A stretch of 64,000 nt of DNA from Gluconobacter morbifer G707 (GTDB taxonomy: Bacteria > Pseudomonadota > Alphaproteobacteria > Acetobacterales > Acetobacteraceae). The notes beneath the pieces are model-generated. The model saw only the letters and a program-made list of their open reading frames with translations, was not told where the DNA came from and ran no database searches. Positions 44,782-55,012 of this stretch are shown here, piece after piece (positions within the stretch are counted from its first letter, which is position 1; each line of letters opens with the position of its first letter). The DNA lies in assembly GCF_000234355.1 (NCBI RefSeq), contig NZ_AGQV01000010.1:248001-312000 (forward strand), written 5' to 3'. A program made the position numbers and the translations under genes.

Positions 44782-44905
44782 GGGAAGCAGAAGTGGGTCT
44801 TGGGTGCTTTGTATTCTAAGCTCAGGATCTGTTAATTTATTGAATTGAGCTGTGCTCTATGCTTCACGGGCCTCCCGAGGGGAACCTGTGGGTAATATGT
44901 TTTTG

Positions 44906-45130
44906 CTGGCTGAGAGGCAGATGGAAAGGATTACGCCGTATTTTCCTCTGGGCTCACGGAGCTGAGTGTGGATGACCGCCGAGTGCTCCTTGGGATCGTG
45001 TATATGATCCGTAACAGGGCTCAGTGGAAAGATGTGCCGGAAGCGTATGGTCTGCACAAAACCTTATAACCGATTCATCCGCTAGAGCGTCTGGGTATTT
45101 TCAATGTGATGGCCTGTTTCGGCCTAGCCG
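44906..45130 (+). mobile_element. IS5/IS1031-type transposase remnant
   Basis: Scattered frames read ERQMERITPYFPLGSRS, then VDDRRVLLGIVYMIRN, RAQWKDVPEAYGLHKTL and RFIR...LGIFNVMACFGL. This is the order seen at the N-terminus of IS5-family transposases of the IS1031 type. At least two frameshifts and a stop break it and the C-terminal half is absent. It marks the right edge of the amino-sugar locus and stands 330 bases from the left repeat of the tRNA-Tyr element. Confidence 0.65.
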
Positions 45131-45460
45131 CCTGCATCTGCCAGCCTTCCTGTTCAGTTGCTTCCTGATTACCTCAAGAGCGGTATCACGAAGCCCCAGG
45201 GCATCTTACGCGTGCAGGTCTGGAGAAATTTGAGGATGTCTTTTCGGATTCCCATGCAGGAAGCAAGCATCTTGCCGGCGGTCTTTCGGGATGATGAACC
45301 GGACATAAAAAAGTCCATCCCAATCAGCCATATCCGTGTCGCCTTCTATCAACGAAGGCAGGACCGAGCCATAGCATCGAGGTGACGCTAGACCAGTGAC
45401 GCAGCGTTAACCTGAAGTGACGCTGGTTTTGGCTAAATGATTGTTTTTTCAGGAAAAGGG

Positions 45461-45481
45461 GACCTGGTGGAGAGAGTTGGA
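45461..45481. other. Left attachment repeat
   Basis: GACCTGGTGGAGAGAGTTGG plus one A is an exact copy of the tRNA-Tyr 3' end with four flanking bases. After excision one copy would remain to complete the tRNA. Confidence 0.85.
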
Positions 45482-45700
45482 AACAGCTCTCATTTGTCAT
45501 AAAACACCATACAAAACATATAGTTATCGCACCGAAAATCCGATGGCTGACTCTCATGGTGCTACAACTCGGCGAGCAGCGTATCCGTCGTCGAAGAAGA
45601 TCCAGTGACAGAGGCAAATTGTCAATCTGCGGAATGGTTTTCTCCCTTCGCAGAACGTATCATGAGAAATTCTCGAAGACCGTGTGCGGCTTACTGAATG

Positions 45701-46450
45701 ATGGCGGAAAAGAAGCGAAACCCACCTTGGACCCGTGACGAGATCATCTTGGCGTTGGACCTCTATCGACAAGTTGAAGGGGCTTGGCCCCGAGAAAGTG
45801 ATCCTCGCGTCGCGGCGCTCAGCGATACCCTTAATAGCTTCTGGCGTGCCCAGGGCCATGAAGGAGCGACACTGCGCAATGCTAATGGTGTGAAGATGAA
45901 GCTCATGAACCTTCGCGCCCATGATCCCGCTTACGCTGACAAGGCAGGTCTGAAAGCAGGAAATCATATTGAGCGTGAAGTATGGGCCGACTTCGCAGAT
46001 GATCCTCGACATCTCAAGGAAACGGCTGATGCAATTCGGGAAGCGATTGTGTCGGGAAAAGCTATCCAGATTGAGGTCGAAAGTGATGAGATTCTGGACC
46101 CAAACGAGGTAGAAGCTCCAGAAGGACGGCTTCTGACAGTCATGCATCATCGCCGGGAGCGGTCGCGAAAGATCGTTAAGGCAAAGAAGCAGGATGTCTT
46201 GAAAAAGGTGGGCCGCCTGACCTGCGAGGCTTGTAGCTTTGATTTCGCCGAACGATACGGTGCTCGCGGAGATGGGTTTATAGAGTGCCACCATATAAAG
46301 CCGCTGGCAGACTTGGCCGAAGCAGGAAATACGCGGTTAGCCGATTTGGCGCTTCTCTGTGCAAATTGCCACAGGATGATCCATGCGAAGCGGCCCTGGC
46401 TAAGCGTAGACGAACTTCGCGCTCTTCTTGATTTAGAGGGGTGGAACTGA
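45701..46450 (+). CDS. HNH endonuclease (first of two in the element)
   Basis: The protein of about 249 residues has an N-terminal module WTRDEIILALDLYRQ with ATLRNANGVKMKLMNLRAHD, found in many HNH nucleases of suspected type IV restriction systems. The C-terminal HNH domain has CEACSFDF, ECHHIKPLADL and LCANCHRMIHAKRPWL: two Cys pairs for zinc plus the catalytic His and Asn. It stands alone at the left end of the element, with no methylase nearby, so it may cut modified DNA. The start could be either of two adjacent ATGs; the ribosome binding site is weak. Confidence 0.82.
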   Translation: MAEKKRNPPWTRDEIILALDLYRQVEGAWPRESDPRVAALSDTLNSFWRAQGHEGATLRNANGVKMKLMNLRAHDPAYADKAGLKAGNHIEREVWADFADDPRHLKETADAIREAIVSGKAIQIEVESDEILDPNEVEAPEGRLLTVMHHRRERSRKIVKAKKQDVLKKVGRLTCEACSFDFAERYGARGDGFIECHHIKPLADLAEAGNTRLADLALLCANCHRMIHAKRPWLSVDELRALLDLEGWN

Positions 46451-46809
46451 GGGGAAAGTCCGGATGGGAGAAATTATCTGTTTAAATTTTCAATACAAAA
46501 AGAGTATTTTTAGCAAGTCAAATTGAGTGAGGTTTATGTGGTGTGCAAATTAGCCCGCATTCAACTTCTGTTTCTCCACCGGCATGCGGCCTAGTTATTC
46601 TTTTGCAGTTTATAGCAAGATGGGACCCAAGACGAGATATAGCGTGTTACAAGCCTCGGCGCGCAGCCGCTTTTACGGTAGTCGGATAACGAGTAAGAAA
46701 TGCCCGCCTTCGTCGAAGGCCAGCAATCCCCCGGCCGTCGTAAATGAATGCCAATGGGGGAAGCGTGTAGCTGCTGTTACTTCCTTACACGGCACCATTT
46801 CTGCCGTTT
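46451..46809. other. Gap between two convergent HNH genes
   Basis: These 359 bases hold no gene that I can support. The first part is AT-rich and the second part GC-rich, which may mark the junction of two modules. A 113-residue plus-strand frame here matches nothing known and overlaps the next gene. Confidence 0.4.
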
Positions 46810-48015
46810 TTATAATTCTCGTAATCGCCTTTGAGATCGAAGTGCGTTCATATCAGGATGGAGAGCCGGATCATCGGGTAGCGAAATTTGCTGTCCATGA
46901 AGGTCACGATATGTGTTTTCGGTGATCTCAGGGGAAACTAAAATTCTAAAATTATCGTCGATTGACAATAATCCGAGATCAAACAACGTATGTATATCGG
47001 ATCGCAGTAGTATTCCGTTCGTAGTGCAGTTAGTTTCAGGTCCATTGTATGGATTTATGTGTGCAGCTTCAAGTATTTCTAGCGTATTTGATCCTGTGAA
47101 TGCGCATCTATTTTTATAAGCGGCAATCAATTGCGATCTGAATTTCGCTTGTCCCTGACGCTGTGTGATCGATGCGAAAACCTTTCGTCTTCCTTCTATC
47201 GCGTTTTGATCGTTATTATCTCTATTCTGACGCTCAAGGAGCTTTTCTTGTTGACGGAGGATTCTCTCGCGTGCTTGCCATTCATGAAGAACATTTGCCA
47301 CCGGTGCTTGCCGTGCGCGGATATAGGACATAAGTGGCGCAAATAATCGAGCAGCATTTTCAAATTCAGTGTAAAAACTGAGATCTATGTCGTCAATTTC
47401 ATCTAAATTGTAATATCTACTAATAGAAGTTGCACCGTATTTTTGACCTGCCTCACTATGAAGGTAGCTTATCAACTCGGATATTGACTGAAAATCACTA
47501 TTTTGATTTTCCATGCGGGCTTTTTTCTTAAATTTCCAGCCACCCTCTTGGTTTAGGCGCACACTAAGATCGAAAATAATTTGACTATTGGAAGCGGGAA
47601 ATAAGTCAAAGAGCAACGGCGTTACTTTTCTTAAAAGATTTTTTACATCTTGATTTGAAAAATCACTTCGGTGAATTGCCGGAGCAAGACCGATTTCTAC
47701 GCCACGGCCAGATACGATCATGAAAATCTGCGGCATACCAACCAAGTCGACTGAATCACTATTAACTAATGAGCACCATAGGTCGCGAGGTCGATTATTT
47801 CGAATTCCGGTTTCTGGTCGAAAACTAGGTTGAACTACGGGCTGAAGGTGATCGATGAAATTCTGGGCCACGTTCTCGCATATATTTCTTAGCGTCTGAT
47901 TGATTCTGACATACGCATCACGCTGCTCTTGTGTGAGAATTTCGGTCCAAGCATTAGAAGGGGAATTCGGAAAATTTCCGACGATTTGGCAATCTTGGCT
48001 ACTGATTTCTGACAT
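46810..48015 (-). CDS. HNH endonuclease with unknown N-terminal domain
   Basis: The 401-residue protein ends in an HNH_2-type nuclease domain: YKNRCAFTG, LEAAHINPYNG, NGILLRSDIHTLFDLGLLSI and a tail FRILVSPEI. The first 200 residues contain WCSLVNSDSVDLVGMPQIF with VEIGLAPAIH and could recognise modified DNA. A charged helical linker (QARERILRQQEKLLERQNRD) joins the two. The gene is clearly AT-richer than the flanks, a sign of separate origin. Relatives of this architecture are annotated as HNH restriction endonucleases. Confidence 0.8.
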   Translation of the reverse strand: MSEISSQDCQIVGNFPNSPSNAWTEILTQEQRDAYVRINQTLRNICENVAQNFIDHLQPVVQPSFRPETGIRNNRPRDLWCSLVNSDSVDLVGMPQIFMIVSGRGVEIGLAPAIHRSDFSNQDVKNLLRKVTPLLFDLFPASNSQIIFDLSVRLNQEGGWKFKKKARMENQNSDFQSISELISYLHSEAGQKYGATSISRYYNLDEIDDIDLSFYTEFENAARLFAPLMSYIRARQAPVANVLHEWQARERILRQQEKLLERQNRDNNDQNAIEGRRKVFASITQRQGQAKFRSQLIAAYKNRCAFTGSNTLEILEAAHINPYNGPETNCTTNGILLRSDIHTLFDLGLLSIDDNFRILVSPEITENTYRDLHGQQISLPDDPALHPDMNALRSQRRLREL

Positions 48016-48322
48016 ATAAATCGCCTTAAATCACAAAATTTTATAAGAGGCATTCAGACGAAGCGCTAAAGGCCCACAGTTGACATGGTTATTTACCTTT
48101 CTACTTTTTGGAGAAAAGTCAATTCCTGTCAGAACGGCAAATTGAGTAATATATAAGATATTCATTCTTTTATCATTATAAAAGTTTCTGGAAATGTGTC
48201 GCCTTGTGCGCAAGTCGCAAGGCTATAGTCATCTGTCCGGATTGCATACTTTTCTGGACACTTTCGCCGCCAACGGAAAACCGGGCTTCCTATGTGTCAG
48301 GAAAACACCGATTCTATGTTTA

Positions 48323-48351
48323 TTGACACTATGTAAGCCATAGCCTAGACA
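48323..48351 (+). promoter_or_regulatory. Promoter of the serine recombinase gene
   Basis: TTGACA (48323-48328) and TAGACA (48346-48351) are spaced 17 bases apart. The spacer contains CTATG and CATAG as an inverted repeat, a possible operator. The rest of the gap 48016-48322 is AT-rich and I see no gene in it. Confidence 0.55.
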
Positions 48352-48377
48352 TTTCCTTACACACAAGGGACCCAGTC

Positions 48378-48947
48378 ATGTCAGGCCAGACCGTCGCATA
48401 CGTCCGCGTTTCATCAGCAGACCAAAACACAGACCGTCAGACCTTCGAAGGCGTGAAAGTAAACAAGACCTTTACCGACAAGTGCAGCGGCGGAACGCGC
48501 AACCGCCCGGCCCTCACCGAGATGATGGAATATGTCCGCAACGGAGACACCATCGTCTGTCACTCCATCGACCGGCTGGCCCGCGACCTGCAAGACCTGA
48601 TGGAACTGGTCCAGACCCTGACGGCCCGTGGCGTCGGTGTGCGGTTCATGAAAGAGAGCCTGATCTTCACCGGCGACGAAAGTCCGATGCAAACCATGAT
48701 CCTGCAAGTCATGGGATCTTTCGCGCAGTTCGAGCGCAGCATGATCCGGGAACGCCAGAAGGAAGGACAGATTGCCGCCCGTGCAAAAGGCAAGCTTCCA
48801 GGTCGAAAGAAGACCCTATCAGCGGGCCAGATCAACGAGCTACATGCACGGATTGATGCCAAGGAACCCAAAGCACAGATCGCAAAAGCACTCGGGATCA
48901 GCCGCGCCACGCTATATTCCTATTGGGATCAGTCCGCCAAAACCTGA
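48378..48947 (+). CDS. Serine recombinase (resolvase/invertase)
   Basis: The 189-residue recombinase has the N-terminal catalytic domain with VAYVRVSSADQNTDRQ (catalytic Ser), DKCSGGTRNRPAL, CHSIDRLARDLQDLM and FAQFERSMIRERQKEG. The C-terminal HTH is KAQIAKALGISRATLYSYW. The size is that of DNA invertases and transposon resolvases, not of large integrases. It could resolve multimers of an excised circle or invert a segment. AAGGGA lies before the ATG, and a strong terminator follows directly. Confidence 0.92.
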   Translation: MSGQTVAYVRVSSADQNTDRQTFEGVKVNKTFTDKCSGGTRNRPALTEMMEYVRNGDTIVCHSIDRLARDLQDLMELVQTLTARGVGVRFMKESLIFTGDESPMQTMILQVMGSFAQFERSMIRERQKEGQIAARAKGKLPGRKKTLSAGQINELHARIDAKEPKAQIAKALGISRATLYSYWDQSAKT

Positions 48948-48958
48948 ACTACAATATA

Positions 48959-48981
48959 GACCGGCCTTGAGCCGGTCTTTT
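48959..48981 (+). terminator. Terminator after the serine recombinase
   Basis: GACCGGC, CTTGA and GCCGGTC form a perfect 7-bp hairpin followed by TTTT, 11 bases after the stop codon. Confidence 0.85.
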
Positions 48982-49108
48982 CGTATCTGACACGGCCGCT
49001 AAGAAATACACCTGCCGATCATCCGTTGAGGTTAGGAAGCGGCTGAACTCGAACGTCTCTTCTTCGAGCCAGAAATCCGCAATCAATAACTACTATCCTG
49101 TTTCGTGC

Positions 49109-49114
49109 TATAAT
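49109..49114 (+). promoter_or_regulatory. -10 box before the HTH gene
   Basis: A perfect TATAAT lies 38 bases before the start codon of the HTH protein; the -35 side is weak. A similar GCTATAATA stretch recurs at 51692, before the next small gene, so element promoters may share this form. Confidence 0.45.
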
Positions 49115-49152
49115 AGGTGCAATCAATCCCCCCGAACGAGACAGGAGCCATC

Positions 49153-49776
49153 ATGAGCGAACCGAAAAAGAGGCGATATGCCAAGCTGACAGACGAGAAG
49201 TGGGTTGAGGCCGCAGAAATGCACAAACTTGGCTTCACCCAAGACCAGATAGCTGAGGCGATGAATGTCTCCGTCCGCACGGTCAACACCCATCTTCCGG
49301 TAGCCGTTGCCAAACTGGACGCCGCCAAGATCGCGATCACCTCGACTGACACGGCCCCAGTCCTTCCGGTTCCATCGCCTCATGACTTGCCGCCAGTCAC
49401 CGATCTAGAAGAGTGCGGGCGCTACGCTCGTCGCCAAATGTGGAACGACATCGACGCCGTGACGAAGGCCCTACGTCGCGAGGTCGCATCCCCCGTCCCG
49501 AACGGAAGAAGCATCCGCGCACTGGCGACCGCTGCCGAGGCGTTCAAGAACGTATGGGGCATCGCTAGAGACGTCATCCAGCTTGACGACACGATTGATG
49601 ACAAGGCGCTACCGCAGATCGTTATCCGTGAGATCACGGCTGATGAGGTGCAGGAGATGCGGCGCAAGCAGCGTCTCGAAGACGGAGACATTGACGAGGC
49701 CGAAGCCCGACTCCTGAAGGAAGAGGCGGCGCGTGATGATACCGACGCGGACACCGCTGTCATCAGTGAGGAATAG
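49153..49776 (+). CDS. HTH DNA-binding protein of the element
   Basis: The 207-residue acidic protein has an N-terminal helix-turn-helix (WVEAAEMHKLGFTQDQIAEA followed by MNVSVRTVNTHLP). A Pro-rich linker follows, then a helical C-terminal half with a charged tail (DGDIDEAEARLLKEEAARDD). The HTH resembles LuxR/Sigma-70 region-4-like turns and small-terminase N-termini, but no terminase partner is present. CAGGAG precedes the ATG at good spacing. It may regulate the element or bind its origin. Confidence 0.7.
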   Translation: MSEPKKRRYAKLTDEKWVEAAEMHKLGFTQDQIAEAMNVSVRTVNTHLPVAVAKLDAAKIAITSTDTAPVLPVPSPHDLPPVTDLEECGRYARRQMWNDIDAVTKALRREVASPVPNGRSIRALATAAEAFKNVWGIARDVIQLDDTIDDKALPQIVIREITADEVQEMRRKQRLEDGDIDEAEARLLKEEAARDDTDADTAVISEE

Positions 49777-49914
49777 GCCGAAGTCTTAGAAAATCGCGGG
49801 AAACCCTCCATCCATACCCGATATACTCGGCAGCAATTTTGAAAATCGGCAACCAAAATCACTAGATTAAATCGTTTGTTGTGGAAATATCGGCCTCAAT
49901 ATTGTTACAATAAA

Positions 49915-49987
49915 GGGGCTCATACGGACTGTGAGTTAGCAGGGAGATGCAGGGGTGCATCTCCCTGCCACCCCGTCCGTGAGCCCC
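49915..49987. repeat. Large nested stem-loop before the Rep-like gene
   Basis: A perfect 13-bp inverted repeat (GCAGGGAGATGCA, GGGG loop, TGCATCTCCCTGC; 49939-49968) sits inside an outer stem (GGGGCTCA plus CGGAC at 49915-49929, paired with GTCCG plus TGAGCCCC at 49975-49987). In all about 26 base pairs can form over 73 bases. No T tract follows, so it is not a plain terminator. It ends 40 bases before the Rep-like gene, where a rolling-circle double-strand origin would be expected. Confidence 0.7.
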
Positions 49988-50026
49988 CGCCGCAGTCCAA
50001 GTCACAAACCCCATGAGCCCCCATAA

Positions 50027-51727
50027 GTGGATCACCAGATCGCTGCCGCCCGCGTCATCAGGCATATAAAAAATACGCGCAAAGATTTACTACCAAACCT
50101 CATCGCCTTCCGGGATGAAGTGCTTCAGCATGAGAGCCGCGACCTGATCGCACAGGCCGTGCTGGATTTCGCACGTCACCACCACCTGCCGAACGTGCCT
50201 GAAGCGAAGCGTCCGGTAATGCGTATTGGTGAGCCTCTGCCGTCCCAGAAGGTCCGCGCCCGCATCATGGCGGCGCTAACGGAGAAGGCTGATGGCAACC
50301 TAGAAGCCGCTCTGGAAATCCTCAACATCCCATCCCCAACGGGCATCGGCGAGGACGCCGACATGAGCGCCCTGATGTCCTACCTGCACTGCCTCGATGC
50401 CAAGCGGGATGGAAAATTGGAGGGAGATTCGCCCTCATTTGGAGGGACATTTGCCCCTCATTTGGAGGGAGATTTGCCCCTCAATTTGGAGGAGGATTCG
50501 CCCCTCGATACAGCCGATAACGCCGCGTTGAAAAATCCGCAGTTTCCTGCCGCCCGGAATACTGCCGATCAGAGCAAGAGCGAGGGTGGAAAAACGCATG
50601 GACCATTAGTATCCCTTCCCCTGCATACAGTTTCACACCCTGAAACCCTCCCTCTAAATGCAGTGCAAAAGCCGCAAGAAATCCAGCGGCCCGCCATCTC
50701 GGCAGTCCGCGTCACGGACGCGCCGAGCGCACCCAAGACGCTCCCAGCCAGCCCAGCGAGAAAGCATCGCAAGAGGGCTTCAACAGACATGACGGCGGAA
50801 GAAATCGCGCATGTCCGGCTCGCTATGCTCGCCTCCCAAGCCAGATCAAAGCCGCTTAACGTCGAGATCATGGTTCGCCTCGAAAAGACGGCCTCATACA
50901 GAAAACTTTGGAACCCATCCCCGGATGCGAAAGGGAAAATAAGAAGCCCGAACTCCGCGAGTGAGCGACAGGCAAGAGCGCAAGCCCGCAGGGCCGCAGC
51001 GGATGCCCTGTCTCGCCTTCTCGACAATCTTGGCAGGGACACGGGCGCTTCTATTCCATACATCGCTGTCTTTGAGCTTCCAGCGAAGGGCGGTTCAGGA
51101 CTCCACGTCCACATAAAGGCCCACCTGCCGGATCGTGAAGCGGTGCAGATCCTCATCCGGAGGCTATCGAAGTTCACGAATACAACGCCGGAGATGGTTC
51201 AGAACTTCCAGCATCTTGCGGACAGCAACCACCTGCCGTTCGACGTCAGAGGAGAAGAATCTTTCGTCCGCAATCCCGACGCCCCCTTCGCCTCGGAGAA
51301 GCGGTCATGGCAAAGCGCCGCATATCTCTGCAAGAGCGCCGCGCAGGACGTCGAAGTCACCATCGCCGGGCAAGCAGCAACTCTAGGCACCATCAGGCCA
51401 GAGGCGGACGAACGAAAACACCTCCGTCACATGCAGGACATCAGAGCCTATCAGCAGCAGAACGCCGATATGTCAATCGCAAAGCGCGTCCGCTTCAGCA
51501 GGTGTCTGGGATGGGCCGCACTGGCAGCGGATGGCTTCACGCCAGAAAAGGCGGGTGATGCCGGGTGGCTTTCAAAATCCGAACGCAACCGACGGGACGG
51601 TATCCATCGCCGCGCCCTTCCAGCTTACTCGCCGCGAGCACCATCATTTCTTCCTCCAGAGCCTGAAAACTCGCCAAAATCTGCCGTTTCTGCTATAATA
51701 ACTCTCGAAAGAGAGGACCATTTGTGA
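50027..51727 (+). CDS. Putative HUH-type replication initiator of the element
   Basis: The protein of up to 566 residues has a helical N-terminus, a low-complexity middle and a conserved C-terminal half. There IAVFELPAKGGSGLHVHIKAHL contains a His-hydrophobic-His (HVH) metal motif, and AAYLCKSAAQD, about 100 residues later, offers YxxK. These are motifs II and III of rolling-circle Rep and related HUH endonucleases. The late FSRCLGWAALAADG-type segment is unassigned. The start is uncertain: GTG at 50027 has no visible ribosome binding site. The stem-loop upstream supports an origin function. I have no family match beyond these motifs. Confidence 0.55.
   Translation: MDHQIAAARVIRHIKNTRKDLLPNLIAFRDEVLQHESRDLIAQAVLDFARHHHLPNVPEAKRPVMRIGEPLPSQKVRARIMAALTEKADGNLEAALEILNIPSPTGIGEDADMSALMSYLHCLDAKRDGKLEGDSPSFGGTFAPHLEGDLPLNLEEDSPLDTADNAALKNPQFPAARNTADQSKSEGGKTHGPLVSLPLHTVSHPETLPLNAVQKPQEIQRPAISAVRVTDAPSAPKTLPASPARKHRKRASTDMTAEEIAHVRLAMLASQARSKPLNVEIMVRLEKTASYRKLWNPSPDAKGKIRSPNSASERQARAQARRAAADALSRLLDNLGRDTGASIPYIAVFELPAKGGSGLHVHIKAHLPDREAVQILIRRLSKFTNTTPEMVQNFQHLADSNHLPFDVRGEESFVRNPDAPFASEKRSWQSAAYLCKSAAQDVEVTIAGQAATLGTIRPEADERKHLRHMQDIRAYQQQNADMSIAKRVRFSRCLGWAALAADGFTPEKAGDAGWLSKSERNRRDGIHRRALPAYSPRAPSFLPPEPENSPKSAVSAIITLEREDHL
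50417..50509. repeat. Four tandem hairpin units inside the Rep-like gene
   Basis: Four copies of a 22-24 base unit (TTGGAGGGAGATTCGCCCTC and variants) follow one another. Each has GAGGG and CCCTC arms that can fold. The protein stretch encoded is a Gly-, Asp- and Pro-rich linker with LEGDSP, GGTFAPH, LEGDLP and LEEDSP. The units could be iterons or a strand-specific signal placed in coding sequence. Confidence 0.75.
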
Positions 51728-52173
51728 CGCCATTCATTAAGCATTATTGCGATACAATCCTGCCTTCCCCGACCGGCGCATCAGATGAGGAAACGCACTT
51801 CATCCCGCCATTCGGGTGGTCCGAAATCATGCACATTGCATCCGATGTCCAGCATCAAGGTCGCGTCGCATCAAAACAGTGGGGGGACGTTGAAGTCCTC
51901 TCTTGCATCATCGAGGGTCAGCCGCACATCCTCGCCCACATCCGAACGATCCAAGGCACGCCCTTCGAAGGTGGGTTTGCATGGCACCGGGAAACCCTGA
52001 AGGCGGAGCTTCACGCCATAAAATCGTCTCTGGAGATCGCAGGAGCCGCCGTATTCTTCGGAGTCACGGCGCTGGAGCTGTTTTCCGAGCCACTGGATGC
52101 GTCCCAGCCCTCGTCCGGCATGATGACACCCAAGAGGACCAGCAAGCGCACCGGCGCAAAGGTGTCGCCATGA
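51724..52173 (+). CDS. Hypothetical protein coupled to the Rep-like gene
   Basis: This 149-residue protein is not recognised. It starts with GTG overlapping the stop of the Rep-like gene by four bases, after AGAGGA. It is soluble, with a middle segment HILAHIRTIQGTPFEGGFAW and a basic tail (PKRTSKRTGAKVSP). Its coupling suggests a helper role in replication or copy control. Confidence 0.65.
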   Translation: MTPFIKHYCDTILPSPTGASDEETHFIPPFGWSEIMHIASDVQHQGRVASKQWGDVEVLSCIIEGQPHILAHIRTIQGTPFEGGFAWHRETLKAELHAIKSSLEIAGAAVFFGVTALELFSEPLDASQPSSGMMTPKRTSKRTGAKVSP

Positions 52174-52373
52174 ACGCCGCCACGACACCGAATCTCCTCA
52201 TGACCAAGGATGCCGGTCTGGCTCTCATCGCGACCAGTAAGACGATTCGCCTGTTCCCGGAGACAATAGAGGGGATAGACTACGCCGTGATAACAGTTAA
52301 AATAGGCGGGAAAACAATTAATATCTATTCAAATCTACATATATGCGGATATTTAATTAGATATTTTGAATGA
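52170..52373 (+). CDS. Small hypothetical protein, ATGA-coupled
   Basis: The 67-residue frame starts in an ATGA overlap with the gene before it. It reads MNAATTPNLLMTKDAGLALI and ends in a region rich in I, N and Y as the DNA becomes AT-rich. The function is unknown. Confidence 0.5.
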   Translation: MNAATTPNLLMTKDAGLALIATSKTIRLFPETIEGIDYAVITVKIGGKTINIYSNLHICGYLIRYFE

Positions 52374-52408
52374 CTAGTTAGTAATAGATATTTAAATTAT
52401 TTATTGAC

Positions 52409-52423
52409 CACGAAAGATTCGTG
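52409..52423. promoter_or_regulatory. Inverted repeat in a promoter-like site
   Basis: CACGAA, AGA and TTCGTG form a perfect 15-base operator-like site directly after a TTGACC -35-like box at 52405-52410. It lies 42 bases before the next small gene and may bind a repressor of it. Confidence 0.4.
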
Positions 52424-52464
52424 ATGCTTTTGTTTTCATCACCAACAAAAAAAGGATGGAATCA

Positions 52465-52659
52465 ATGTCTAATATTGAATCTTACTTCGCTAATGCAGAG
52501 ATCGTCTCCGAGAGCATGGACCGCGCAATGAAGGCCGGGACGTTCCGCATGAATCGCCGCCCGTCTGGTCGATCAGTAGTGTTCGGGCGATCCGTTGACG
52601 GAGAAGATGAGGCGTTCGTAGAAATAGTTGTTGGTGAAGAGTTTGTAAGGCTGGCATAG
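52465..52659 (+). CDS. Small acidic hypothetical protein
   Basis: The 64-residue protein (MSNIESYFANAEIV...) has a short beta-rich C-terminus (RSVVFGRSVDGEDEAFVEIV). AAGGA lies eight bases before this ATG; another ATG nine bases upstream is in frame. The length and charge recall small element-borne regulators or anti-defence proteins, but nothing specific can be said. Confidence 0.5.
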   Translation: MSNIESYFANAEIVSESMDRAMKAGTFRMNRRPSGRSVVFGRSVDGEDEAFVEIVVGEEFVRLA

Positions 52660-52992
52660 AATAGAATAAATTTAGGTCATGGCACGATATAATTGCGCCA
52701 TGACCTATAATAAATATAGTAATTATACAGTACCATATATCGGAAACTCTCTAGAATTAACGTATAATAATTTCTATTACCTTCTCATTTCCGAAAATAT
52801 ACTTCGAACGATTGATGCCAGACAGGGCGTCACGATTTACCGCTTTGCCGTAGCGAGGTAGGCCCATTGGGCCGTCGCTGATGGCGAGACTGCCCTGCTC
52901 TTCGATAAGACGACTTTCGCCGGGCCATCATCGCCCGCGCAGACAAAGAGCGTCTTCCGGTCTGATCGTCAGTATCGCGCTCAAAGCATAAC
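52660..52992. other. AT-rich gap before the integrase end
   Basis: The gap holds an 11-bp inverted repeat (52673-52707) and otherwise AT-rich DNA. A 60-residue plus-strand frame at 52679 has a biased composition and no ribosome binding site, so I do not call it. The gap lies between the small genes and the end of the integrase gene. Confidence 0.45.
52673..52707. repeat. 11-bp inverted repeat with a 13-base spacer
   Basis: TAGGTCATGGC and GCCATGACCTA are perfect reverse complements around ACGATATAATTGC. The spacer contains a TATAAT-like run, so it may be an operator around a promoter or an end-of-transcript hairpin; no T tract follows. Confidence 0.6.
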
Positions 52993-54840
52993 CTATTTGA
53001 CCTTAGACAAGACAGAACGTCGCCTTGGCTTGACTGGGTCAAGGCGAATCTTTTTCACGCCGCGCATAGACATTTTGCCAGGCGGCGCGAGGGTAATTGA
53101 CAGGCCTGGATAAGAAATTGCTTGAATAGCCTTATCCAAAACCGCCAGTTCGAAACCGCTTCCCGTCTCGTCGAGACCATAAACTTCGGCAACATCCTCG
53201 GCATCATGGCCCATGACGGCATCCCGCAGCGTTTTGTCCACCCCGGCATTTCGCAAAGCCCGCTTCGCCGTATGCCTGAAAGAGTGAAAGGATTTGTTGA
53301 GCTCCGGAACCGCTTTTCGTGCTTCGCGCCCCCACCAGTTCGAAAAAGGACTGGTAGGCTTTTTCCCTTTAGACGTCTCGGCACGGATCATAGGAAAGAG
53401 AAGGTCGTCTAGACCATCACCTGATAGACGCCTTCCCTCGACGTAGCGCAGAAAGCCGAGACGCTTCACTTCATTATGAATAGGGATGCGCCGTGCAGCA
53501 TTTACAGTTTTCCCAGTCAAGATATGGAGCACGTCGATATCGTCTTCCCGAACAACATCCCTAATTCTCAACGTGCCAAGCTCGTTCAGGCGTGCGCCAG
53601 AATACAAAGCTAAGATCGGCAGCCAGACTGCGGCCTCACCCGCGCCAGCCGCCGACCGCTCGCCCTTCACGAACACAGGCAACGCAAAAATAGACTTCAG
53701 ATCCTCAAGACTGTAGGGTAGACGTGCTGCTTTGGTTTTCGGCGCTCCACCCTTTGCACGAACCTCTCGCGAAACCACCTGGTCCACGTAACCATTATCA
53801 GAAGCCCATTTTAGCGCAACGGACACAGCAGAAAGATGCTTGCTGTTAATCGTGGCTGACGACAGGCGCGGAACGTCAGGTTTATCTTTGTAAAGCGCCG
53901 TCACCTCTTGAACCGTAAGCAGTCGCTCCGCTGGCTTCAGCCGTGCAGGTATCTTCAGCAGCACATCTTTAAAGCCAGCGATTTGCCGTTTCGTGATCCG
54001 CGCGACATCCAAATCCCCAAATACTTCAATAAAGCGCCGGATGGACGTCTGAAAACTTGCCGCAGTGGAGACCGCGGGCTTGCGCTCATCAATGTATCGC
54101 TGCAAAGCCCCAGAAATCGTCAAGCCGGACGTTTTCACTGGCAAATGATCTTTGTCTTCCGCTTTCGTCGTAGGCCCGTCTGGCTCCTGGGGGCTTTTCG
54201 CACGCGGAAACAGGTCATCGGGTAGCGACGGCTTCCATGAAGGCTGAAAGTCCGTCCGTCCAGACGCCCATTCAAGCACTGTCTCGGCAACCTCGCTCTC
54301 GCCAGCCAAGATTTGCCCGGCGATAACTTCGACCCGCCTGTCATTCTCTAGAATGGGAGGAGCCGCTTTGGCTGCCAAGAGCCGCGCAACACTCCTGAAG
54401 GAAGAGGCCTTCAGCGTGCCTTCCTCGAGTTGCTGAAGCGTATGATCGGCACAATCAGCCGCGAACCTCGCCTTCTCTCCCATGAAATCAAAATTAGCGC
54501 CGGGCCTATCACGTTTAAGAGCCGCGATCCGTTCGGAAATGATCTCATCTCGCTCGGGGTCTAAGAAATTATCAGCCCAGGCTCGCTGCAGGGCAGTTTC
54601 AAACCATTCCCGAATAATCCGGTCCATTTCCTCAAAACCAGACACGCTCTCCAACTCCACCCAAAGCCGTTTGATCCGTAGACCAAGCGCAGCACACAAA
54701 ATCCGCGCGACATCCCGATCCCGCGTTCCAACAGCGAACACGACATCTTGTTTTGCCACACGGCTCCGCAACCAGGCTGGCACGCGACACCTAAACGAAT
54801 AGGTATCGCCACGGCGATAGACAAAGCTGCCAATGCCCAT
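52993..54840 (-). CDS. Tyrosine recombinase (integrase) of the tRNA-Tyr element
   Basis: The 615-residue phage-type integrase has a basic N-terminus typical of large alphaproteobacterial integrases (YRRGDTYSFRCRVPAWLR). An SAM-like core-binding segment follows (about residues 240-345). The catalytic domain has the first Arg in LYSGARLNELG, HSFRHTAKRAL, MGHDAEDVAEVYG and the terminal Tyr in that last segment. The gene starts 83 bases from the right repeat and reads away from the tRNA. It should catalyse insertion and excision between the two 21-bp repeats. Confidence 0.93.
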   Translation of the reverse strand: MGIGSFVYRRGDTYSFRCRVPAWLRSRVAKQDVVFAVGTRDRDVARILCAALGLRIKRLWVELESVSGFEEMDRIIREWFETALQRAWADNFLDPERDEIISERIAALKRDRPGANFDFMGEKARFAADCADHTLQQLEEGTLKASSFRSVARLLAAKAAPPILENDRRVEVIAGQILAGESEVAETVLEWASGRTDFQPSWKPSLPDDLFPRAKSPQEPDGPTTKAEDKDHLPVKTSGLTISGALQRYIDERKPAVSTAASFQTSIRRFIEVFGDLDVARITKRQIAGFKDVLLKIPARLKPAERLLTVQEVTALYKDKPDVPRLSSATINSKHLSAVSVALKWASDNGYVDQVVSREVRAKGGAPKTKAARLPYSLEDLKSIFALPVFVKGERSAAGAGEAAVWLPILALYSGARLNELGTLRIRDVVREDDIDVLHILTGKTVNAARRIPIHNEVKRLGFLRYVEGRRLSGDGLDDLLFPMIRAETSKGKKPTSPFSNWWGREARKAVPELNKSFHSFRHTAKRALRNAGVDKTLRDAVMGHDAEDVAEVYGLDETGSGFELAVLDKAIQAISYPGLSITLAPPGKMSMRGVKKIRLDPVKPRRRSVLSKVK

Positions 54841-54922
54841 CGGTGCTACAGTCTTGTGCTACAATGAGTACAGACTGACCCGTTAGGAAAAAAACAGTCA
54901 AAACAATCAGTTAGATGGAGGC

Positions 54923-54943
54923 GACCTGGTGGAGAGAGTTGGA
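54923..54943. other. Right attachment repeat in tRNA-Tyr
   Basis: This exact copy of the left 21-bp repeat includes the last 17 bases of tRNA-Tyr and four flanking bases. The tRNA stays whole at this end. Confidence 0.85.
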
Positions 54944-55012
54944 TTCGAACCAACGTAGGCGTACGCCAGCGGATTTACAGTCCGCCCCCTTTAGCCACTC
55001 GGGCACCTCTCC
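54927..55012 (-). tRNA. tRNA-Tyr (GTA)
   Basis: The minus strand gives an 86-base class II tRNA. The 5' acceptor strand GGAGAGG pairs with the 3' strand TCTCTCC followed by A and an encoded CCA. The D arm follows GGTGCCCGAGTGGC, and the anticodon loop CTGTAAA has anticodon GTA. A long variable arm and GGTTCGAATCC complete it. The gene is the insertion target of the neighbouring element. Confidence 0.95.

Follow-up and report, generated by a model that had tools for sequence, protein, structure and literature searches.

In a 64,000-nucleotide window of the Gluconobacter morbifer G707 genome (contig NZ_AGQV01000010.1, positions 248,001 to 312,000 of the forward strand; coordinates below are those of the window), the segment 45461-54943 is a 9.46-kb insertion in the gene for tRNA-Tyr, and we conclude that it is probably an integrated phage satellite: a tRNA-integrating element that would replicate by rolling circle and use its own small terminase subunit (TerS) to enter the particles of an SSU5-like helper phage. 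The insertion is bounded by two identical 21-bp attachment (att) sequences (45461-45481 and 54923-54943), embedded in a 25-bp repeat with one mismatch (45457-45481 and 54919-54943). The exact repeats and the tRNA-Tyr target described in the initial annotation are both correct, the right-hand repeat being the 3' end of the tRNA gene, and an Rfam scan returned nothing but this tRNA. The element is present once in the source genome (2.89 Mb, 19 contigs), and two other members of the genus, Gluconobacter potus R-71646 (G014) and G. cerevisiae LMG 27748 (G025), hold sister elements. When the entire window is the query, the match to each of them begins exactly at 45461 on the left and passes 54943 into conserved chromosome on the right, and the 21-bp sequence recurs at both ends of each sister element. 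Because the similarity starts at the repeat and the sisters share its sequence, the att repeats are not a product of chance.

An empty tRNA-Tyr in related genomes, proposed at the outset as the check on the insertion, was found. For each of the 25 other genomes of the genus compared, we inspected the sequence 3' of tRNA-Tyr: 21 have one copy of the att core (the stretch read was about 19 kb in 19 of them, 0.75 kb in G018 and 4.7 kb in G023, where contigs end), and G002, G004, G014 and G025 have two. When the window flanks were joined at one att copy, they aligned to G020 in a single alignment across the junction (75.8%, query positions 131-938, junction at 481), which identifies the segment 45461-54943 as an insertion. 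The joined flanks also match G004 across the junction, yet in that genome another att copy lies at a distance of 7 kb, and the tRNA-Tyr is occupied by a different element (L041:12141-19168) that encodes a serine recombinase of the type found in the related element G374 (see below), an HNH/HTH protein, a TIR protein matching PDC-S35, another integrase and a protein with polymerase-like motifs read by eye. In G002, an 18.6-kb segment (L051:1333-19950) lies between 59-bp repeats, with a second tRNA-Tyr call at its far end. Just left of attL, positions 44800-45460 of the window hold degenerate transposase-like sequence (IS5-like by eye), the last 330 bp of which also abut tRNA-Tyr in G004 and G020.

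The element belongs to a family. Genes for a serine recombinase, TerS, a replication protein (Rep) and a tyrosine integrase occur in the same cyclic order in six att-bounded elements (the window element, G014, G025, G374, G113 and G184), which span four genera and four tRNA genes, measure 5.9-15.6 kb and end in repeats at the tRNA 3' ends of 21 bp at tRNA-Tyr (three elements), 32 bp at tRNA-Thr, 26 bp at tRNA-Ala and 24 bp at tRNA-Gln. Their distribution is patchy: a search for Rep matched 3 of 26 genomes in the genus, 5 of 397 sampled from the family, two of these weakly, and just the window genome out of 385 in the class. Since G113 and G184 surfaced through the TerS search, such counts from Rep alone are lower bounds.

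The assignment to phage satellites turns on the protein encoded upstream of rep, which the initial annotation had described as a helix-turn-helix (HTH) protein. The N-terminal HTH is indeed there, yet the protein's identity had been missed: it is a homologue of the TerS of SSU5-type phages, for which a role in packaging is predicted. The TerS homologues of all four members scanned match phrog_867, and profile-profile comparison (hhalign) with the TerS of three SSU5/ANB28-type phages gave 98.2% (E 4e-14) over 162 columns that include the C-terminal part. A tblastn search of phages with the window TerS returned two records, both Stenotrophomonas phages (E 3e-6 and 6e-6), the better being ANB28, where the homologue overlaps the start of the terminase large subunit (TerL) and is followed by portal, scaffold and major head protein. 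The ANB28 gene, used as query in turn, retrieved 14 phage records, itself included, among them SSU5, which is a phage-plasmid, and Cyrano; in both it is the first gene, directly before TerL, and the Cyrano copy is annotated 'Terminase small subunit'. Against plasmids, the window TerS found a single record (26% of the query, E 0.03). A class-wide search matched 21 of 289 genomes, the own genome included, the other 20 weakly (best E 2.4e-6) and mostly over the HTH part by position, and a family-wide search matched 11 of 299, again with the own genome, 7 of them weakly (E at least 5.6e-5). The homology points to phage packaging and to the class of phage satellites. That the element is carried by another one, as had been surmised, is probable.

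Replication is most plausibly attributed to Rep. The putative HUH/YxxK protein of the initial annotation is borne out by its motifs: HxH and YxxK are invariant in all seven aligned Reps, the window's included, as are the residues E, G, G, H, H, Y and K of the G-x-H-x-H and Y-x-x-K regions, in Reps down to 17% identical to that of the window. On this motif evidence, Rep is probably an HUH-type rolling-circle initiator, and the rolling-circle replication suggested earlier is likewise probable. Rep matched no family at cut-off in Pfam, PHROGs or NCBIfam (best PF23343, E 0.039 and 0.012). By tblastn, the Reps of the window and of G374 had no match in plasmid or phage records and that of G113 none in plasmids, so that three Rep queries went unmatched in 72,556 plasmid records. 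A 4.9-kb contig (G340:C5, L112) holds a cut, weak Rep relative (E 8.9e-4), a serine recombinase and, by eye, a ParA-like protein; it is perhaps a plasmid with the same Rep lineage, and we discarded the idea that the contig is a circular plasmid when its joined ends gave no long continuing reading frame.

The six whole elements also share a short DNA signal between TerS and Rep. A same-strand comparison for patterns of 11 letters, one of them free, gave two that overlap and occur in all six, together CGAAGTC.TAGA (CGAAGTCYTAGA), and none in 20 first-order shuffled sets. The motif follows the TerS stop by about 2-262 bp and precedes the Rep start by 66-307 bp, and could be the nick site of Rep, a packaging site of TerS, or both. 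Its single occurrence is not unusual for the window alone (28 of 100 shuffles, at most one mismatch), and ANB28 has 7 matches with up to two mismatches against 4.3 expected. Among exact k-mers, no 10-mer occurs in at least five of the six elements on either strand, and eleven 9-mers occur in five of six against 3.2 expected (30 shuffles). As a beacon for further members the motif was rejected: GCGAAGTCYTAGAR was present in 3 of 100 relatives, its matches in G012 (beside a TolC-like gene) and G066 (within an rpoB-like gene, both by eye) were taken as chance, and it missed the window's own copy because that copy is preceded by C.

The cruciform previously noted in front of Rep is real, with no structure as strong in 200 shuffles, an inner perfect stem at 49939-49968 and ambiguous pairing of the outer arms; it is not clearly the origin. 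The stem-loop is strong in the window, G014 and G113 (z -6.0, -5.2 and -3.2) and not significant in G374, G025 and G184 (z 0.3, -1.1 and -1.2), which rules it out as a universal origin, and since it begins 3 bp after the -10-like hexamer it may equally be a leader hairpin of the rep mRNA. Inside rep, four imperfect direct repeats are spaced 22, 23 and 24 bp apart; such spacing does not fit a single reading frame, so that what is conserved is a DNA repeat rather than a protein one. They are candidate iterons for Rep binding. G014 has the same repeat type at the same place, G113 and G311 (described next) have other repeats there, and none were found in G025, G374 and G184 at the threshold used.

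A further locus, G311 (L111:1120-17693), has a related Rep and TerS and a 44% identical integrase in a rearranged order, with a serine recombinase, at tRNA-Ser, where no att repeat was found. Its gene between Rep and integrase matches the head scaffolding families phrog_7402, phrog_784 and phrog_206 and is followed by a tape-measure gene. The scaffold of ANB28 matches the same three PHROGs and is similar to that of G311 (41% over 133 aa; E 1e-24), ANB28 having the top bit score among the best 10 of 54 phage records. The window TerS and the G311 scaffold thus point to one phage lineage, and G311 could be a satellite supplying scaffold and tape measure itself. By eye, an IS30-like insertion lies by its Rep. 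On contig C105 of G020 (L081/L066), a decayed member survives as a fragment, with an integrase spread over two frames (63% identical in part) and what by eye is a relative of the 149-aa protein (Table).

The absence of capsid and relaxase genes that had been remarked on holds for the proteins scanned. Nine window proteins, together with seven more from G374, G184 and G113, were without a PHROGs match to any phage structural family at E <= 0.001, and for the nine from the window Pfam, PHROGs and NCBIfam gave no relaxase, coupling-protein or type IV secretion system (T4SS) family and no primase or helicase family. A phage satellite, by the definition in the accessible part of PMC11389934, is not a phage yet encodes mechanisms or signals that favour packaging in phage particles. 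The window element has the att repeats and empty site of an integrated mobile element and no structural family of a virion gene set, the family-wide qualification being the scaffold and tape measure of G311; as a candidate packaging-redirecting protein it has a TerS of firm homology and predicted packaging function.

From these observations we infer the following course. As the att sites and the element family suggest, the integrase would recombine attL and attR in tRNA-Tyr to release a 9.46-kb circle, and, as the HUH and YxxK motifs suggest, Rep would nick this circle (candidate site CGAAGTCYTAGA, with the repeats inside rep as candidate binding sites) and replicate it by rolling circle into head-to-tail concatemers. 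Once an SSU5-like helper is active, the element's own TerS would bind element DNA and hand it to the helper TerL, and the concatemers would fill helper heads, a step proposed from the TerS homology and from the TerS-bearing phage-inducible chromosomal islands (PICIs) and the concatemers of phage-inducible chromosomal minimalist islands (PICMIs) as portrayed in the accessible parts of PMC6092414 and PMC10803314. In the recipient, the serine recombinase might resolve the concatemer to single circles, one of which the integrase would insert at tRNA-Tyr, and the HNH nucleases may serve as anti-phage cargo.

Several observations weigh against the satellite interpretation. First, the window TerS is just 25% identical to that of ANB28, and three IMG/VR scans with Rep or TerS queries, the G113 TerS included, found no relative. 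Second, the Rep fold could not be modelled (predicted local distance difference test score 43), and such matches as were obtained for it were weak. Third, the motif has no match within two mismatches in the first 4.65 kb of Cyrano, the two one-mismatch copies of ANB28 lie more than 3 kb from its TerS, and in the related Rep-bearing loci G311 and G340 matches are no more frequent than chance. Fourth, neither a capsid-redirecting or interference gene nor an AlpA/Stl-like regulator was recognised; the small ORFs of the window element show no clear family, ORF 52679-52861 being outside the scans. Finally, no helper was identified: of 26 genomes in the genus, two have a match to the ANB28 TerL (G007, E 8e-20, 27% identity; G004, E 5e-6), and the gene before the TerL of G007 resembles, by eye, a TerS of another type than that of the window.

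Among other explanations, one with a modest chance of being correct is that the element is mobilizable or an integrative plasmid of the rolling-circle type, transferred by conjugation or by plasmid transformation. The TerS-like protein would then have been recruited to repress rep or to regulate its copy number, with CGAAGTCYTAGA acting as the operator for this protein or as a nick site resembling oriT, in keeping with the position of TerS directly upstream of rep with the motif between the two. HUH Reps can serve as relaxases, a serine resolvase suits the resolution of plasmid multimers, and G340:C5, with its weak Rep relative, also has a ParA-like gene by eye. Against this, the homology to phage TerS reaches beyond the HTH into the C-terminal part, the Rep queries are unmatched among plasmids, the nine window proteins include no relaxase, coupling or T4SS family, and G311 has phage scaffold and tape-measure genes. 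We regard it as improbable that the element is what is left of a temperate phage or phage-plasmid, now immobile, its structural genes gone and those for integration, replication and terminase retained. The scaffold and tape-measure genes still present between Rep and integrase of G311, its IS30-like insertion and the two-frame integrase of the G020 fragment would suit such decay; however, four genera share one compact gene set, with open frames and att repeats, at four different tRNA genes, occupation within the genus is patchy and cargo varies among members, and random decay would not repeatedly yield an identical minimal set. That the element is a defence island, its HNH nucleases the functional point and its integration and replication genes a mere means of retention, is very improbable despite the HNH genes of restriction type in this element, the type I restriction genes of G113 and the TIR protein in the G004 occupant, as every member has recombinase, TerS, Rep and integrase, but cargo varies and in G374 none is recognised.

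The genes of the element are listed in the Table. The integrase, serine recombinase and two HNH nucleases of the initial annotation are all confirmed by Pfam. HNH nuclease 1, with a PADLOC HNH match (E 2.9e-9) and matches to restriction-type profiles, adjoins attL in all three Gluconobacter elements and is 96% and 91% identical in G014 and G025. HNH nuclease 2 matches NF045808 (E 1.2e-16, below its cut-off) and PADLOC HNH (E 2e-19), and its C-terminal part resembles restriction HNH proteins, both nucleases matching restriction-type profiles in part. The second nuclease has no BLASTP match in the sister elements, which rules it out as a core gene, and is probably cargo. Between window and G025, Rep (46%) and TerS (38%) are less alike than HNH nuclease 1 is among the sisters (91-96%), so that the left end has probably been exchanged as a module. 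The integrase is 88% and 74% identical in G014 and G025 (the DUF6538 profile check covered the window integrase), and serine recombinases are present in the relatives as well. The 149-aa protein, 91% identical in G014 and 52% in G113, matched no family in Pfam, PHROGs, NCBIfam and PADLOC-type scans. Directly inside its left att (L113:1692-9003), G113 has genes for type I restriction and for a PDC-S14 protein; these and the HNH nucleases fit the anti-phage cargo known from satellites. In G374 no cargo was recognised. Two members have, between Rep and integrase, a conserved accessory protein of about 315 aa (L005:14885-15826 and L113:13766-14719) that is 29% identical across 233 positions and by eye may resemble an ADP-ribosyltransferase; the G113 copy has no PHROG match.

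Table. Features of the window element and its target gene (aa, amino acids)
Feature	Coordinates	Strand	Remarks
attL, left att repeat	45461..45481	+	21 bp identical to right copy
HNH nuclease 1, 250 aa	45698..46450	+	Pfam HNH E 1.3e-8
HNH nuclease 2, 401 aa	46810..48015	-	Pfam HNH_2 E 5e-13
Serine recombinase, resolvase/invertase type, 189 aa	48378..48947	+	Pfam Resolvase E 7.8e-38
TerS homologue, 207 aa	49153..49776	+	N-terminal HTH, helical middle, conserved C-terminal end
12-bp motif CGAAGTCTTAGA	49779..49790	+	common to all six whole elements
Promoter-like site for rep, TGGAAA-18-TACAAT	49882..49911	+	TG before second hexamer; consensus scan only
Large stem-loop	49915..49987	+	at expected 5' end of rep transcript; DNA fold z -6.0
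Rep, 566 aa, HUH-type motifs	50027..51727	+	HxH at H360/H362, YxxK at Y433/K436
Four imperfect direct repeats inside rep, consensus GGAGGGAGATTTGCCCCTC	50419..50506	+	19 bp, 0-4 mismatches
Conserved small protein, 149 aa	51724..52173	+	start overlaps rep stop
Three small ORFs (52170-52373, 52456-52659, 52679-52861)	52170..52861	+	common to G014
Tyrosine integrase, N-terminal DUF6538, 615 aa	52993..54840	-	DUF6538 E 1.4e-12, Phage_integrase E 1.9e-8
attR, right att repeat	54923..54943	+	overlaps 3' end of tRNA-Tyr
tRNA-Tyr(GTA), target gene	54927..55012	-	kept intact; tRNA and Rfam search

We put forward tentatively, and with considerable doubt, the wider proposal of an undescribed satellite family of Acetobacteraceae with an HUH initiator and an SSU5-type TerS, in which the 12-bp signal would serve as both nick site and terminase entry site, concatemers would feed the heads of phages of about 110 kb, and G311-like members may alter head or tail size. 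If true, it would add a satellite family with a replication-packaging logic of HUH Rep plus own TerS, a combination that we did not find described, in industrially used acetic acid bacteria; it would predict the helper type (SSU5-like, about 110 kb), the rolling-circle concatemer mechanism and the 12-bp signal, and its shared genes would link phage-plasmids, rolling-circle plasmids and satellites. Literature searches on phage satellites of Gluconobacter, Acetobacteraceae and Alphaproteobacteria brought up no description of such an element and, for acetic acid bacteria, no paper on satellites, most subscription papers lying outside the coverage. In the accessible part of PMC8566455, on temperate phages of acetic acid bacteria, the word 'satellite' does not occur, and an ocean element treated under phage satellite and HUH endonuclease in that of PMC12324425 is without terminase. 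The initial annotation held that the combination could not be named; it can be named as a satellite-like element, and a described family to place it in was indeed not found.

Integrative rolling-circle plasmids such as the actinomycete integrative and conjugative elements (AICEs) integrate at tRNA genes with a tyrosine integrase and encode a rolling-circle type Rep, as the window element appears to do; by contrast, no TraB-like translocase is among the families found in the window proteins, and a TerS is present. The SSU5/ANB28-like phages (about 103-110 kb) share the TerS homologue, and with G311 also the head scaffold protein, but the element is about one-twelfth their size and no TerL, portal, capsid or tail family was found in the proteins scanned. 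PICIs, as described in the accessible part of PMC6092414, are likewise small integrated islands with an integrase, their own replication gene and sometimes their own TerS, lacking structural and lytic genes and carrying accessory genes that include phage resistance. The window element differs from them in its HUH-type Rep in place of a primase/Rep (no primase or helicase being found), its serine recombinase, its SSU5-type TerS, the 5.9-15.6 kb size of its family members, the lack of a recognised AlpA/Stl-type regulator, and candidate origin features placed within rep and upstream of it, whereas the PICI module has its origin 3' of the replication gene. According to the accessible part of PMC10803314, in which the word 'terminase' is absent, the PICMIs of Vibrio sit by fis and use alpA, int and primase, whereas the window element and its relatives lie at tRNA genes with an HUH-type Rep and their own TerS, and no AlpA or primase family was found. 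On the other hand, PICMIs are similarly small, with few genes and no recognised capsid remodelling gene, and their rolling-circle concatemers, packed into full-size helper heads (PMC10803314), are the same packaging substrate that we propose for the window element.

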